DNA of 64,000 nucleotides from Sphingomonas metalli (lineage in GTDB: Bacteria; Pseudomonadota; Alphaproteobacteria; Sphingomonadales; Sphingomonadaceae): NCBI RefSeq assembly GCF_014641735.1, contig NZ_BMIH01000003.1:310001-374000 (forward strand). Direction: 5' to 3'. Position numbers and translations under genes: made by a program. The notes under the pieces were generated by a model that saw nothing but the letters and a program-made list of their open reading frames with translations, ran no database searches and was not told where the DNA came from. This document shows positions 4,352-54,001 of the stretch, in pieces. Numbering within the stretch: the first letter of the stretch is position 1; the number at the start of each line of letters is the position of its first letter.

Positions 4352-4621
4352 ATGGACCACGATATCCGCCTGAAGCGCCTGCGCTTTCGCGCCTGGCACC
4401 GCGGCACGCGCGAGGCGGATCTGATGATCGGCGGCTATTTCGATGCGCATCACGCCCGCTGGAGCGCCGAGGAGCTCGACTGGTTCGAGGCACTTCTCGA
4501 GGAGCAGGATGTCGACATCATGGGCTGGGCGATCGGCTCCATCCCTTGCCCGGCGCGTTGGGACGGACCGATGATGGCGGGGATGCGGGCGCTCGACTTC
4601 GTGCCGAAGCCGGGGGACTGA
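4352..4621 (+). CDS. sdhE: Succinate dehydrogenase assembly factor SdhE (YgfY family)
   Basis: An 89-residue protein matching the SdhE/SDHAF2 family, which promotes covalent attachment of FAD to the succinate dehydrogenase flavoprotein. The family motif RGxxE is visible as RGTRE at residues 20-24, followed by the helical pattern LEEQDVDIMGW typical of the family. It is the first gene of a plus-strand pair with mfd (gap 47 bases) and is divergent from recG. The ATG at 4352 agrees with the family N-terminus. Nothing is unusual in the sequence. Confidence 0.88.
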   Translation: MDHDIRLKRLRFRAWHRGTREADLMIGGYFDAHHARWSAEELDWFEALLEEQDVDIMGWAIGSIPCPARWDGPMMAGMRALDFVPKPGD

Positions 4622-4668
4622 CCCCTGCTCGCCCGCATGATGCTTCGCTGAACACGACGGAACCTGCC

Positions 4669-7600
4669 TTGCCCGAATTGAAGACGATCCTGACCGCCAA
4701 GTCGCCGCTGACCCTGTCGGGGGTGCCGACCGGCTTCCAGCCGTCGCTCCTCGCCGATCTGGCGCGGGCGGCCGGACGCGCGGTGTTCATCGCGCCGGAT
4801 GACGCGGCGATGCGGGCGATCGCCGCGACCGCGCCCTTCTTCGCGCCGGAGCTGGAGGTGGTGACGGTGCCCGCCTGGGACTGTCTGCCCTATGACCGCG
4901 CCTCCCCCTCGCTGCGGATCATGGCCGAGCGGGTGGCGGCGCTCCATCGCTTGCAGGGCAAGGCGAAGTGGCCGCAGCTGGTCCTGACCACCGCCAATGC
5001 CGCGACCCAGCGCGTGCTGACGCCGTTCCGCATCCGCCAGCTCGTCGCGAAGCTGGCGCCCGGCGAGCGGATCAGCCTCGAAAAGCTCGCCGCCCTGCTC
5101 CAGGCCAATGGTTATGTCCGTACCGAGACGGTCCACGACCAGGGGGAGTTCGCGGTGCGCGGCGGGCTGGTCGACCTGTTCCCGAGCGGCGAGGAGCAGG
5201 CGCTGCGCCTCGACTTCTTCGGCGACGAGATCGAGAGCGTGCGCACCTTCGATCCGGGCGACCAGCGAACCACCGGGCGGATCGACGGCTTCACCCTGCT
5301 CCCCGCCTCGGAGGCGCTGCTCGACGAGGAATCGATCAAGCGCTTCCGCACCCGCTATCGCGAGACCTTCGGCGCGACCGCGACCGGCGACCCGCTCTAT
5401 CAGGCAGTGTCCGAGGGGCGGCGGATGGCCGGCATGGAACATTGGCTGCCGCTGTTCGAGGAGAAGCTGGCGACGCTGTTCGACCATCTGGGCGAGGCGG
5501 TGGTGCTGCGCGATTCAGGCGTCGCCGCGGCGGCGGAGGCGCGGCTGGAGGCGATCGCCGACTATTACGAGAACCGGAAGCGCGCCGAGGCGGCGCAGCC
5601 CGGCAGCTATCGCCCCCTGCCCGCCAAGGCGCTGTATCTCGACAGTGCCGAATGGGCCAAAGGGCTGGAGGCTGCGACCGCACATGTCACCAGCAGCTTC
5701 CACGAACCGGAATCGAAGACGGTGCTGGACTTCGCGGTCGACGGCCCGCGCGACTTCGCGCCGGAGCGGGCGAACCAGTCCAACGTCTATGAGGCGGTGG
5801 TCGCGCATGTCGAGAAGCTGCGCCGCGACGGGCGCAAGCCGGTGCTGGCGAGCTATTCCATCGGCGCGCGCGAGCGGCTGGCCGGGCTGCTCACCGATCA
5901 CGGGCTGAAGGGGGCGAAGGCCGCCGACAGCTGGCACGAGGCGCTGGCGGTGGCCGATACCGCGAAGAGCTTCGGCGTCGCGCTGGTCGTGCTGCCGCTC
6001 GACCATGGCTTCACCGCGCCGGGCGTCGCGGTGCTGACCGAGCAGGACATGCTGGGCGACCGGCTGGTCCGGCGAACCAAGCGCAAGAAATCGGCCGACG
6101 CCTTTCTCGCCGAACTGGCGACGCTGTCGCCCGGCGATCTGGTCGTCCATGCCGATCATGGCATCGGCCGCTATGAGGGGCTGACCTCGATCCCGGTCGG
6201 GCAAAGCCCGCACGACTGTGTCGCCCTCTCCTATGCCGGCGGCGACAAGCTGTACGTGCCGGTCGAGAATCTGGAGGTGCTGACCCGCTACGGCTCGGGC
6301 GAGGACGGGGCGAGCCTCGACCGGCTGGGCGGCGAGGCGTGGCAGCGGCGCAAGTCGAAGATGAAGGAGCGCATCCGCGAGATCGCGGGTGAGCTGATCG
6401 CCACCGCCGCCGAACGCGCGCTGCGCCCCGGCGAAGTCGCCGAGCCGGACAGCGCCGGCTATCCCAGCTTCGTCGACCGCTTCCCCTATGAGGAAACGGA
6501 CGATCAGGACCGCGCGATCGGCGACGTGCTGGAGGATCTGGGCGCGGGCAAGCCGATGGACCGGCTGATCGTCGGCGATGTCGGCTTCGGCAAGACCGAG
6601 GTGGCGCTGCGCGCCGCCTTCGTCGCCGCGATGGCGGGGATGCAGGTGGCGGTGGTCTGCCCCACCACGCTGCTCGCGCGCCAGCATTACAACAATTTCG
6701 TCCAGCGGTTCGAGGGCTTCCCGATCAATATCGGCCGCCTCTCGCGCCTCGTCACCGCGAGCGAGGCGAAGAAGGTCAAGGACGGTGTGGCGTCGGGCGA
6801 TATAGACATCGTCGTCGGCACTCATGCGATCCTCGCCAAGGGGGTGGGGTTCAAGCGGCTGGGCCTCGTCATCGTCGACGAGGAGCAGCGCTTCGGCGTG
6901 ACCCACAAGGAACGGCTGAAGGCGCTGAAGGCCGACGTTCACATGCTCACGCTGACCGCGACGCCGATCCCGCGCACGCTCCAGATGGCGATGTCGGGCC
7001 TGCGCGAGCTGTCGGTGATCCAGACCCCGCCGGTCGATCGCCTCGCGGTCCGCACCTATGTCATGCCCTGGGACCCGGTGGTGCTGCGCGAGGCGCTGCT
7101 GCGCGAACATTATCGCGGCGGGCAGAGCTTCCTCGTCACCCCGCGCATCGCCGACCTGCCCGATATCGAGGAGTATCTGCGCAACGAGGTGCCCGAGGTC
7201 CGCTACGTCGTCGCGCATGGCCAGATGGCGGCGAGCGACGTCGAGGAGCGGATGAGCGCCTTTTACGACCGCAAGTTCGAGGTGCTGGTCTCGACCACTA
7301 TCATCGAGAGCGGGCTCGACATCCCCTCGGCCAACACGATGATCGTCAACCGCGCCGACCGGTTCGGCCTCGCCCAGCTCTACCAGCTGCGCGGGCGCGT
7401 GGGACGGTCGAAGACGCGCGCCTATGCCTATCTCGTCACCCCGCCCGAGCGGCAGATGACCGAGGCGGCCGAGAAGCGGCTGAAGGTGCTGAGCGACCTC
7501 GATTCGCTCGGCGCGGGGTTCCAGCTCGCCAGCCACGATCTCGATATCCGCGGCGCGGGCAATCTGCTCGGCGACGAGCAGTCGGGGCATATCAAGGAGG

Positions 7601-8130
7601 TCGGCTACGAACTCTACCAGTCGATGCTGGAGGAGGCGATCCTGGAGGCGAAGGCTGGCGGCGCGTTCGAGCGGCCGCGCGATTTCAGCCCGCAGATCAC
7701 CGTCGATGCGCCGATCCTGATCCCGGACGACTACGTCCCCGATCTCGACCTGCGCATGGGCCTGTACCGCCGCCTCAACGAGCTGGAAAAGGGTCAGGAG
7801 ATCGAGGGCTTTGCCGCCGAGATGATCGACCGGTTCGGCCCGCTGCCCGATGCGACCGAGAACCTGCTGCGCGTCATCGAGATCAAGCTGAACGCCAAGC
7901 GCGCCTGCATCGCCAAGATGGACGTGGGGCCGCGCGGGGTGCTGGTCGCCTTCCACAACGACACGCCGCCCAACGTCGCGGGGCTGCTCGCCTATGTCGA
8001 CCGGCTGAACGGCGTGGCGAAGCTGCGGCCGGATTCGAAGCTGGTCCTGCAGCGTGCCTGGCCGGATGCCAAGGCGCGGCTGCACGGAGCGCTTCAGCTG
8101 ACCAAGGGGCTCGCCAAGGCGGCGGGGTGA
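4669..8130 (+). CDS. mfd: Transcription-repair coupling factor Mfd
   Basis: Displaces RNA polymerase stalled at DNA lesions and recruits UvrA. I place the start at the TTG at 4669, because the family N-terminus begins (M)PELKTILTAKSPLTL. An upstream in-frame ATG at 4546 lies inside sdhE and would add unrelated residues. This gives 1153 residues, close to E. coli Mfd. Domains in order: a UvrB-like N-terminal region; the RNA-polymerase interaction domain with VVHADHGIGRYEG near residue 492; the translocase with Walker A GDVGFGKT near 636 and DEEQ near 737; QLRGRVGRS; and the C-terminal TRCF domain. The weak start codon may keep its translation below that of sdhE. Confidence 0.95.
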   Translation: MPELKTILTAKSPLTLSGVPTGFQPSLLADLARAAGRAVFIAPDDAAMRAIAATAPFFAPELEVVTVPAWDCLPYDRASPSLRIMAERVAALHRLQGKAKWPQLVLTTANAATQRVLTPFRIRQLVAKLAPGERISLEKLAALLQANGYVRTETVHDQGEFAVRGGLVDLFPSGEEQALRLDFFGDEIESVRTFDPGDQRTTGRIDGFTLLPASEALLDEESIKRFRTRYRETFGATATGDPLYQAVSEGRRMAGMEHWLPLFEEKLATLFDHLGEAVVLRDSGVAAAAEARLEAIADYYENRKRAEAAQPGSYRPLPAKALYLDSAEWAKGLEAATAHVTSSFHEPESKTVLDFAVDGPRDFAPERANQSNVYEAVVAHVEKLRRDGRKPVLASYSIGARERLAGLLTDHGLKGAKAADSWHEALAVADTAKSFGVALVVLPLDHGFTAPGVAVLTEQDMLGDRLVRRTKRKKSADAFLAELATLSPGDLVVHADHGIGRYEGLTSIPVGQSPHDCVALSYAGGDKLYVPVENLEVLTRYGSGEDGASLDRLGGEAWQRRKSKMKERIREIAGELIATAAERALRPGEVAEPDSAGYPSFVDRFPYEETDDQDRAIGDVLEDLGAGKPMDRLIVGDVGFGKTEVALRAAFVAAMAGMQVAVVCPTTLLARQHYNNFVQRFEGFPINIGRLSRLVTASEAKKVKDGVASGDIDIVVGTHAILAKGVGFKRLGLVIVDEEQRFGVTHKERLKALKADVHMLTLTATPIPRTLQMAMSGLRELSVIQTPPVDRLAVRTYVMPWDPVVLREALLREHYRGGQSFLVTPRIADLPDIEEYLRNEVPEVRYVVAHGQMAASDVEERMSAFYDRKFEVLVSTTIIESGLDIPSANTMIVNRADRFGLAQLYQLRGRVGRSKTRAYAYLVTPPERQMTEAAEKRLKVLSDLDSLGAGFQLASHDLDIRGAGNLLGDEQSGHIKEVGYELYQSMLEEAILEAKAGGAFERPRDFSPQITVDAPILIPDDYVPDLDLRMGLYRRLNELEKGQEIEGFAAEMIDRFGPLPDATENLLRVIEIKLNAKRACIAKMDVGPRGVLVAFHNDTPPNVAGLLAYVDRLNGVAKLRPDSKLVLQRAWPDAKARLHGALQLTKGLAKAAG

Positions 8131-8183: not shown

Positions 8184-8280
8184 CGTCATTCCCGCGAAGG
8201 CGGGAATCCAGAGCCTCTAACGTTGGCGGGTGATGCGGAACGCTCCCGCGTCTGGGTCCCCGCCTTCGCGGAGATGACGG
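8184..8280. repeat. Family B palindromic element
   Basis: A 97-base element starting CGTCATTCCCGCGAAGGCGG and ending CCCCGCCTTCGCGGAGATGA followed by CGG. The two halves are inverted copies around a less conserved centre. Related copies lie at 19261-19359 and, reversed, inside fmt at 50263-50358. It sits in the gap between mfd and the convergent DUF4440 gene. Confidence 0.8.
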
Positions 8281-12167: not shown

Positions 12168-12300
12168 AGCCCAGCGAAGGCGAGACCTTTGCGAATGGCC
12201 TGTCGTCATGCCGGACGTGTTCCGGCATCCACGGCACCGCAAACGCGCGATCCGTTGATCTTGCGGTACGGTGGATCCCGGAACAAGTCCGGGATGACGA
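12168..12300. repeat. Family A remnant plus family C palindromic element
   Basis: Bases 12168-12200 look like a family A half (CCCAGCGAAGGCGAGACC). Bases 12203-12300 are a full family C element: CGTCATGCCGGACGTGTTCC, then a variable centre, then GGATCCCGGAACAAGTCCGG and GATGACG. Other copies are at 44782, 48064 and 53905. Bases 12301-12465 show nothing I can identify. Confidence 0.75.
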
Positions 12301-13990: not shown

Positions 13991-14055
13991 ATTCAAACTC
14001 ATGTCATCCCATTCGGAATTCTCGGGGGGTGCAGGTCGCGCAATCGCCATTCGTC

Positions 14056-14132
14056 CATCCCAGCGAAGGCTGGGATCTCTGGCGACCGGAGCGCATCGGC
14101 CGAGAAAGGCCCCAGCCTGCGCTGGGGCGACG
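14056..14132. repeat. Family A palindromic element
   Basis: It begins CATCCCAGCGAAGGCTGGGA and ends CCCCAGCCTGCGCTGGGGCG, with a variable 30-base centre. It fills the space just before the end of secA. With the terminator and the family D element it accounts for most of the 389-base gap; I see no gene there. Confidence 0.8.
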
Positions 14133-38566: not shown

Positions 38567-38649
38567 CGTCATCCCGGCGCAGGCCGGGATCTTCCTGTGG
38601 CGGCCACAGCGCTCTCCCCGCAAAGGCCCCAGCCTTCGCTGGGGCGACG
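38567..38649. repeat. Family A palindromic element
   Basis: CGTCATCCCGGCGCAGGCCG, then a variable centre, then CCCCAGCCTTCGCTGGGGCG. It occupies the gap between pckA and the hydrolase gene. Confidence 0.8.
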
Positions 38650-48063: not shown

Positions 48064-48160
48064 CGTCATGCCGGGCTCGTCCCGGCATCCACCGTGCCGC
48101 GTGAACGCGGTCGGATGCGCGTGCGGAGGCGTGGACCCCGGAACACGTCCGGGGTGACGT
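48064..48160. repeat. Family C palindromic element
   Basis: CGTCATGCCGGGCTCGTCCC and GGACCCCGGAACACGTCCGG followed by GGTGACG are inverted halves. It lies between rmuC and def. Confidence 0.8.
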
Positions 48161-49416: not shown

Positions 49417-50508
49417 ATGCGGATCATCTTCATGGGAACGCCCGGCTTCGCGGTGCCGACGCTGGAGGCGCTGGTCGCGGCGGGGCATGACGTCGTCGCC
49501 GCCTACAGCCAGCCGCCCCGTCCCGGCGGCCGGCGCGGGCGCGAACTGGTGCCCTCCCCCGTCCAGCAGCGCGCCGAGGTGCTGGGCATCGCGGTGCGCA
49601 CCCCGGTGTCGCTGAAGGGGGCGGAGGAACAGGCGGCGTTCGCGGCGCTGGAGGCCGATGTGGCGGTGGTCGCCGCCTATGGCCTGATCCTGCCGCGCGC
49701 GGTGCTCGATGCGCCGCGCCATGGCTGCCTCAACGTCCATGGCTCGCTGCTGCCGCGCTGGCGGGGCGCCGCGCCGGTGCAGCGCGCGATCCTCGCCGGC
49801 GACGCGGAGACCGGCGTCGGGATCATGCAGATGGAGGCGGGCCTCGACACCGGGCCGGTGCGGCTCGAGGGGCGGACCGCCGTCGACGGCAAGACGGCGG
49901 GCGCGCTGACCGACGAACTCGCCACCATGGGCGCGGCGCTGATGGTGCGGGTGCTGGCCGATCTTGACGGCCACCCGCCGGTGCCGCAGCCGACGGACGG
50001 CGTCACCTATGCCGCGAAGATCGACAAGGCGGAGGCGCGGATCGACTTCGCGCAGGATGCCACGGCGGTCGAACGCCTGATCCGCGCGATGAACCCGGCG
50101 CCCGGCGCATGGTTCGAGGTGGCGGGCGAGCGGGTGAAGGTGCTGGCGGCGGAGGTCATCGCCTCCGACCGTCGCCCCAGCGAAGGCTGGGGCCTTGATG
50201 CGGAGGTCACGGCAGGCGCCACGGGAAATTCCGGCCTGCATCAGGCCTTCGCACATACCCCCGGTCATCCCCGCGGAGGCGAGGATCCAGACGCGTGGGA
50301 GCCTTCCGCATCCCTCGAAACGTCAGAGAATATGGATCCCCGCCTCCGCGGGGATGACAAGGCTGGTTTGGTCCTCGACGATCGCCTCACCATAGCCTGT
50401 CTGAACGGCGCGCTTCGACCGACGCTGGTGCAACGCGCCGGGCGCGGCGTGGCGAGTGCGGAGGAACTCCTCCGCGGCTTCCCCATTCCCGCAGGCACGC
50501 GGCTTTGA
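49417..50508 (+). CDS. fmt: Methionyl-tRNA formyltransferase, with in-frame repeat insertion
   Basis: Formylates initiator Met-t[23 protein letters not shown], and [18 protein letters not shown] with [10 protein letters not shown], are family motifs. Length is 363 residues, some 50-60 more than usual (about 300-315). The extra residues (about 252-314: RRPSEGWGL through [12 protein letters not shown]) are encoded by the family A half and family B element at 50169-50358. The insertion is in frame in a loop of the C-terminal OB-fold domain, between AAEVIAS and [18 protein letters not shown]. Everything after it is intact, including [18 protein letters not shown]. The stop overlaps truA by four bases. 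Confidence 0.94.
50169..50194. repeat. Family A half-element inside fmt
   Basis: CCGTCGCCCCAGCGAAGGCT followed by GGGGCC, identical in form to the left halves of the intergenic family A elements, here read as part of fmt codons. Confidence 0.85.
50263..50358. repeat. Family B element inside fmt (inverted relative to 8184-8280)
   Basis: GGTCATCCCCGCGGAGGCGA at one end and CCCCGCCTCCGCGGGGATGA at the other; the centre CCAGACGCGTGGGAGCC followed by TTCCGCATC matches the reverse complement of the 8184 copy. It is a near full-length copy in coding sequence without breaking the frame. Confidence 0.88.
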
Positions 50509-53904: not shown

Positions 53905-54001
53905 CGTCATCCCGGACCTGTTCCGGGATCCACGGTCCAGCAAGAATCAACGCCTGATACGCTTGCCGCGCGGTGGATGCCGGAACAAGTCCGGCATGAC
54001 G
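53905..54001. repeat. Family C palindromic element
   Basis: CGTCATCCCGGACCTGTTCC and GGATGCCGGAACAAGTCCGG followed by CATGACG are inverted halves. Confidence 0.82.

Follow-up and report, generated by a model that had tools for sequence, protein, structure and literature searches.

Does the methionyl-tRNA formyltransferase gene (fmt) of Sphingomonas metalli encode a working enzyme with palindromic repeats inside it, and if so, what allows such repeats to persist there? The question arises from a 64,000-nucleotide stretch of the 3.86-Mb genome (the window; contig NZ_BMIH01000003.1, positions 310,001 to 374,000), for which a preliminary description had placed palindromic repeats in frame within fmt, adding some 50–60 residues (about 252–314) in a loop of the C-terminal OB-fold domain. 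The sequence, comparison with homologues and the AlphaFold model all confirmed the in-frame repeats, and their extent was borne out at about 60 residues, 252–314. The insert begins with the codon of residue 252 (50170–50172), which is the CGT of the first repeat arm, and ends with residue 314 (50358). The features concerned are collected in Table 1.

Table 1. Positions in the window of fmt, its insert and the palindromic dimers compared with it
Feature	Position	Strand	Description
B dimer, intergenic, same family	8185–8278		80.8% over 99 nt against the fmt B dimer; just after the Mfd-like ORF 4546–8130
A dimer	38568–38648		best E-value against the fmt A part among the sampled dimers listed
fmt, methionyl-tRNA formyltransferase	49417–50508	+	363 aa, insert included; Pfam match and fold match
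A-type CGTC palindromic dimer	50169–50239	+	left arm 50170–50194 intact, right arm decayed; encodes RRPSEGWGL
Inserted stretch, in frame, OB-fold loop	50170–50358	+	residues 252–314; open; about 60 aa above the usual 303
B-type dimer, left arm	50264–50288	+	GGTC tag, 4-nt loop and CCA tail; one mismatch in the 8-bp stem; encodes HPRGGEDP
B-type dimer, right arm	50334–50358	-	TGTC tag, CCA tail; plus strand encodes MDPRLRGDD

The protein matched Formyl_trans_N (1.5e-37; residues 1–180) and Formyl_trans_C (2.3e-18), with the best C-domain stretch reaching residue 253. As measured, the loop is 78 aa long in the S. metalli Fmt, against 15–21 aa in 144 of the 170 Fmts compared. Outside the loop, comparison with the Fmt of L003 gave a dN of 0.081, a dS of 0.48 and a dN/dS of about 0.17, and a 53-row Fmt alignment with insert carriers among its rows shows no variation at N106, H108 and D144, which we take to be the catalytic residues. 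In the AlphaFold model, 261 of the 363 residues reach a pLDDT of at least 90; the core lies mostly above 90, and values fall below 50 at residues 261–285, 287–290 and 293–311. Among known structures the model matches E. coli Fmt (1fmt and 2fmt) best, in which the equivalent of the loop is a short stretch around SVIDTATNAAPG. The enzyme core is conserved and the reading frame is open through the insert; the very low model confidence across the insert would fit disorder, as expected. Among named relatives, those with the closest Fmts are mostly Sphingomonas. The close homologues do not all carry unrelated sequence of the same length at this position: L003 and L004 (303 aa each), its closest neighbours in the Fmt tree, are without the insert.

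The preliminary description had recognised half of a family A element and a near-complete family B element in the insert. The B element proved to be a near-perfect dimer, its two arms differing at 1 of 25 positions, but the A element, rather than a half, is a dimer that has decayed in its right arm. As the B arms are nearly identical and the A arms now pair poorly, B probably inserted after A. The A dimer of fmt matched the A dimer at 38568–38648 (reverse complement) with 80.6% identity over 72 nt (E 5e-14), and the B dimer matched another B dimer of the same genome (L182:5162-5257) with 88.9% over 99 nt (E 2e-28); these alignments show both fmt dimers to be relatives of repeats dispersed in the same genome. 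The dimer at 38568–38648 overlaps an abhydrolase ORF solely upstream of its domain, and for that reason an N-terminal extension carrying the repeat is possible.

The elements were compared with the CGTC-1 REPs of Di Nocera et al. (2013; PMC3733652), with which they share tag, stem, loop, dimers and mostly intergenic placement. According to the text of that paper, CGTC-1 REPs have a terminal CGTC tag (TGTC or CCTC also reported), an 8-bp stem, a 4-nt loop and a CCA tail, form head-head dimers and are mostly intergenic, and their stems have complementary A and T in the first two positions “almost invariably”. In fmt, the A left arm bears CGTC (50170–50173) and the B right arm TGTC; the GGTC of the B left arm departs from the CGTC, TGTC and CCTC tags. 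An 8-bp stem with a 4-nt loop is present in the A left arm (GCCCCAGC-GAAG-GCTGGGGC) and, on the minus strand, in the B right arm (ATCCCCGC-GGAG-GCGGGGAT). Both B arms have the complementary A and T at stem positions one and two as well as the CCA tail; the A left arm has GC at these positions and no CCA tail. Two-arm head-head dimers of 63–105 nt were found at 51 of 70 sampled sites (37 A and 14 B by our own split). Copy number is high, with 386 arms in the genome against 3 for a reversed-pattern control, and placement is mostly intergenic, 3 of the 70 sites being Pfam-supported as intragenic. On these features the elements appear to be members of the known CGTC-1 REP family, fitting most of its published features, with the A arm departing in the first stem pairs and the tail.

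The window alone contains 23 arm-like sites against 0.29 expected, a number reached in none of 100 shuffles, and the arm pattern has at least one match in each of 101 genus genomes, with totals from 1 to 512. The 70 sampled sites came from the window and 40 fetched stretches; 27 were flagged by an ORF spanning the repeat by at least 40 aa on either side. A Pfam scan of at least one frame per flagged site (leaving out the second frame at window 14054–14131, minus strand) gave matches flanking or crossing the repeat at three sites, in fmt, pheT and ccmA, and no Pfam match for 17 further frames at flagged sites; as Pfam can miss genes, three intragenic sites is a minimum. As to the view that the repeats otherwise occur only between genes, no other in-gene repeat was found in the window, but the genome has the pheT and ccmA cases. 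Of the 306 frames of the sampled dimers, 186 contain no stop codon, and 13 of the 51 measured lengths are divisible by three, so that about one landing in six could be read through. A further palindrome family of the GTCATGCCGGACTTGTTCCGGCATCC type lies in the window at 12205–12230, 48065–48090 and 53906–54000, with no copy inside fmt.

We then compared the loop across 170 Fmts, taken from 30 genus loci (S. metalli included), 80 named loci and 60 fetched loci. Besides the 144 rows with loops of 15–21 aa, four had 23–25 aa, which were left uncounted, and 22 had 27–78 aa, representing 20 distinct Fmts. In-frame palindromic loop inserts are present in 20 of 158 distinct Fmts, Sphingomonas sp. 37zxx (L039) and S. 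jeddahensis (L035) being among the carriers. Sorted by sequence under our own labels, 15 are CGTC REPs, three belong to a GERG/RRGEG palindrome and two to a PVEAL/STSSG palindrome; three of the CGTC rows (L031, L041 and L135) were assigned by eye, with no arm within 3 mismatches, and two others (L002 and L168) match through the right arm only. Most of the inserts form long hairpins, and at least two reading frames are in use among them. Every internal insertion of at least 8 aa in the 170 Fmts falls at core columns 249–259 of 301, the rest of the 301-column core having none, and every one of the 170 frames continues into a C-terminal tail of 36–47 aa. By sequence comparison, this loop contains other repeats in relatives, which goes beyond what the preliminary description could see, and unrelated palindromic families are shown to occupy it in other lineages. 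The Fmt loops of L034, L122, L224 and L212 are repeat-like and resemble halves of elements or what decay has left of earlier insertions.

Insert frequency was taken from the genus sample alone because the 80 named loci had been chosen partly with insert peptides: an insert is present in 11 of 96 genomes, S. metalli excluded (89 read first and 7 later; G007, G012, G094 and G099 left out; a short possible remnant in G026 uncounted). The non-CGTC families are also repeats in their host genomes. With a GERG query, G003 and G004, which both have GERG in fmt, gave 61 and 56 matches; L054, the third GERG carrier, gave 5 from its genome, the two PVEAL carriers gave 27 and 4, and G000 gave none. A PVEAL query had 49 and 46 matches in its two carriers, and 22 and 17 in the non-carriers G000 and G003, with up to 40 candidates scored per genome. 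Genomes with CGTC inserts had a median of 127 arms against 64 in the others (n = 9 versus 89; one-sided p 0.065), so repeat load was not significant as a cause of insertion, and load alone is no predictor because these genomes lack a clear repeat excess. At the order level, 134 of 137 genomes matched, with the match split around the loop only in G000, G010, G227 and G232; the G227 insert is the same as that of L052, and that of G232 is degenerate and repeat-like. The Fmt of G133 has a proline-rich stretch there, not a palindrome. At the class level, 130 of 142 genomes matched, split across the loop only in G000 and G010, apart from a few ambiguous partial matches (e.g. G283 and G343). Given so few split matches at either level, a wide taxonomic spread of loop inserts was rejected.

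A quick tree was built from the 158 distinct Fmt cores with the loop excluded; 72 of its 155 branches are weak and were treated as open, and gain and loss are not separable on it. Insert presence required 16 changes and the family labels 17; for the label “none”, at least 7 are required by well-supported branches. A single clade of the 15 CGTC rows was rejected (p-AU 8e-8), and the three unrelated repeat families imply at least three gains. A well-supported trio contains L054 with GERG, L117 with a CGTC dimer and L122 with a short loop that looks like a GERG remnant in sequence. The carriers L036, L138, L056 and L120 lie together, with L110, which has no insert, among them; since they cluster and three of them share similar spacer residues, part of the insert count reflects inheritance. 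Taken together, tree and alignments indicate that palindromic repeats of at least three unrelated families have inserted on several separate occasions into one Fmt loop.

Other genes were examined for comparable events. In pheT (L209:663-755; S. metalli contig C2 near 312.7 kb) a B dimer lies in frame. The PheT loop is filled, at least among the matches listed, by a B dimer in G000 and G095 and by PVEAL-like repeats in G001 and G040; in G093 it appears filled, judging by match length only. PheT thus appears, by these matches, to be a second recurrent site on a smaller scale. In a gene that we read as ccmA, of the ABC-type ATPase kind (L186:4879-5036; contig C1 near 684.9 kb), three in-frame REP arms encode IPAEAGVQ...IPAQAGIH...IPAFAGAT; as a further hotspot it was rejected, no other genome among the rows listed having a filled site by eye. 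The fmt neighbour genes served as controls: 0 of 77 TruA and 0 of 41 RecR rows (those of 79 past the start filter) had an insert, and a separate gene comparison of 73 RecR rows revealed no insertion of at least 12 aa. Some genes picked automatically in that comparison look antisense, and the controls are therefore based on the TruA and RecR counts given first. Def has a length-variable loop in 18 of 72 rows, rejected as a repeat insert since it is mostly His-rich. This loop of peptide deformylase (Def), whose gene is close to fmt, occurs for instance as HDGHHHHH in Novosphingobium-like genomes, among named loci such as L059, L072 and L082.

The explanation that we consider highly probable is that two REP-type dimers, A being the older and decayed and B the younger and intact, inserted in fmt, are translated in frame and are tolerated by the loop, the peptide probably being a near-neutral passenger. 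Mobile palindromes would land widely across the genome, and landings in genes would mostly be purged; since the Fmt loop would tolerate a hydrophilic disordered extension, in-frame open insertions could survive there, be inherited for a time, be joined by more copies and then decay. Survivorship is the most likely account: palindromes persist where an open, in-frame insertion yields a harmless disordered tail. It explains the mixed families, the empty relatives and the decay; it does not explain the excess in Fmt over the other proteins looked at. 

Selection might instead keep the inserts, the peptide or an mRNA hairpin tuning Fmt through formylation rate, tRNA contact or mRNA stability. Recurrent hits in one loop, the involvement of two tRNA-handling enzymes (Fmt and PheT), the long palindromes that several inserts still form and the related inserts common to some carriers would all suit such a role. 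It is nevertheless unlikely: the loop is occupied by unrelated families with unrelated peptides, the closest Fmts are without any insert, sister species differ (GERG in L054, CGTC in L117, a short loop in L122), and the insert is modelled at the very low confidence expected of disorder. We also regard it as quite improbable that the loop DNA is a preferred insertion target and that the hotspot stems from target choice and not from protein tolerance; of the 10 distinct Fmts with a recognised left CGTC arm in a counted insert, 8 have that arm in frame 0, and entry points lie a few codons apart, but at least three unrelated families use the loop, entry points vary by up to about five codons among species, and PheT has another loop of this kind. 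An assembly artefact or decaying pseudogene is scarcely credible and not supported: repeats often cause misassembly, but the frame is open across the insert, core dN/dS is low, the presumed catalytic residues are invariant, and the single-contig genome G010 carries its own Fmt insert. A bolder reading, to which we give little chance, is that the Fmt and PheT loops are standing entry ports for any mobile palindrome and that some extensions have been retained for tuning initiation.

Intragenic REPs are already reported in the text of PMC3733652, including in tRNA synthetases of S. alaskensis and E. litoralis. A shared insertion site is reported there only for Xanthomonas recB; unlike that site, the present case involves one Fmt loop, at least three repeat families and one genus. 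Neither “fmt” nor “formyl” appears in the main text of that paper, and the literature searched showed no report of repeats in fmt. In-frame REPs are known (PMC3733652), and recurrent multi-family use of one Fmt loop was not found in print within that search. The likeness to the in-frame elements of Rickettsia suggested earlier is apt, as PMC3733652 equates the CGTC-1 repeats of R. conorii with RPE-6. Like the Rickettsia palindromic elements (PMC3733652, PMC10969869), those of Sphingomonas are in-frame palindromes inside conserved genes, and in fmt the product appears to be kept. Unlike them, as far as these sources describe them, they occur in another lineage, include non-CGTC families and differ in frame and spacer between species.

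The Fmt loop offers a natural replicate experiment, in which unrelated repeats separately extended the same core-enzyme loop in one genus and relatives supply empty, full and apparently decayed states. How selfish palindromes turn into protein sequence, neutral or not, becomes directly testable. For annotation, repeat peptides such as RHPGEGRD, GLRRGDD and IPAQAGI occur inside real proteins.

A REP-like segment of 36–38 aa was also observed in frame in the NAD(P)H-hydrate repair enzyme of the S. faeni group, at six loci (L043–L047 and L053; about 8.9–10.7 kb). It is of the type SPADAGAQ...SWAPASAGER, and Pfam was run on two of the six loci.
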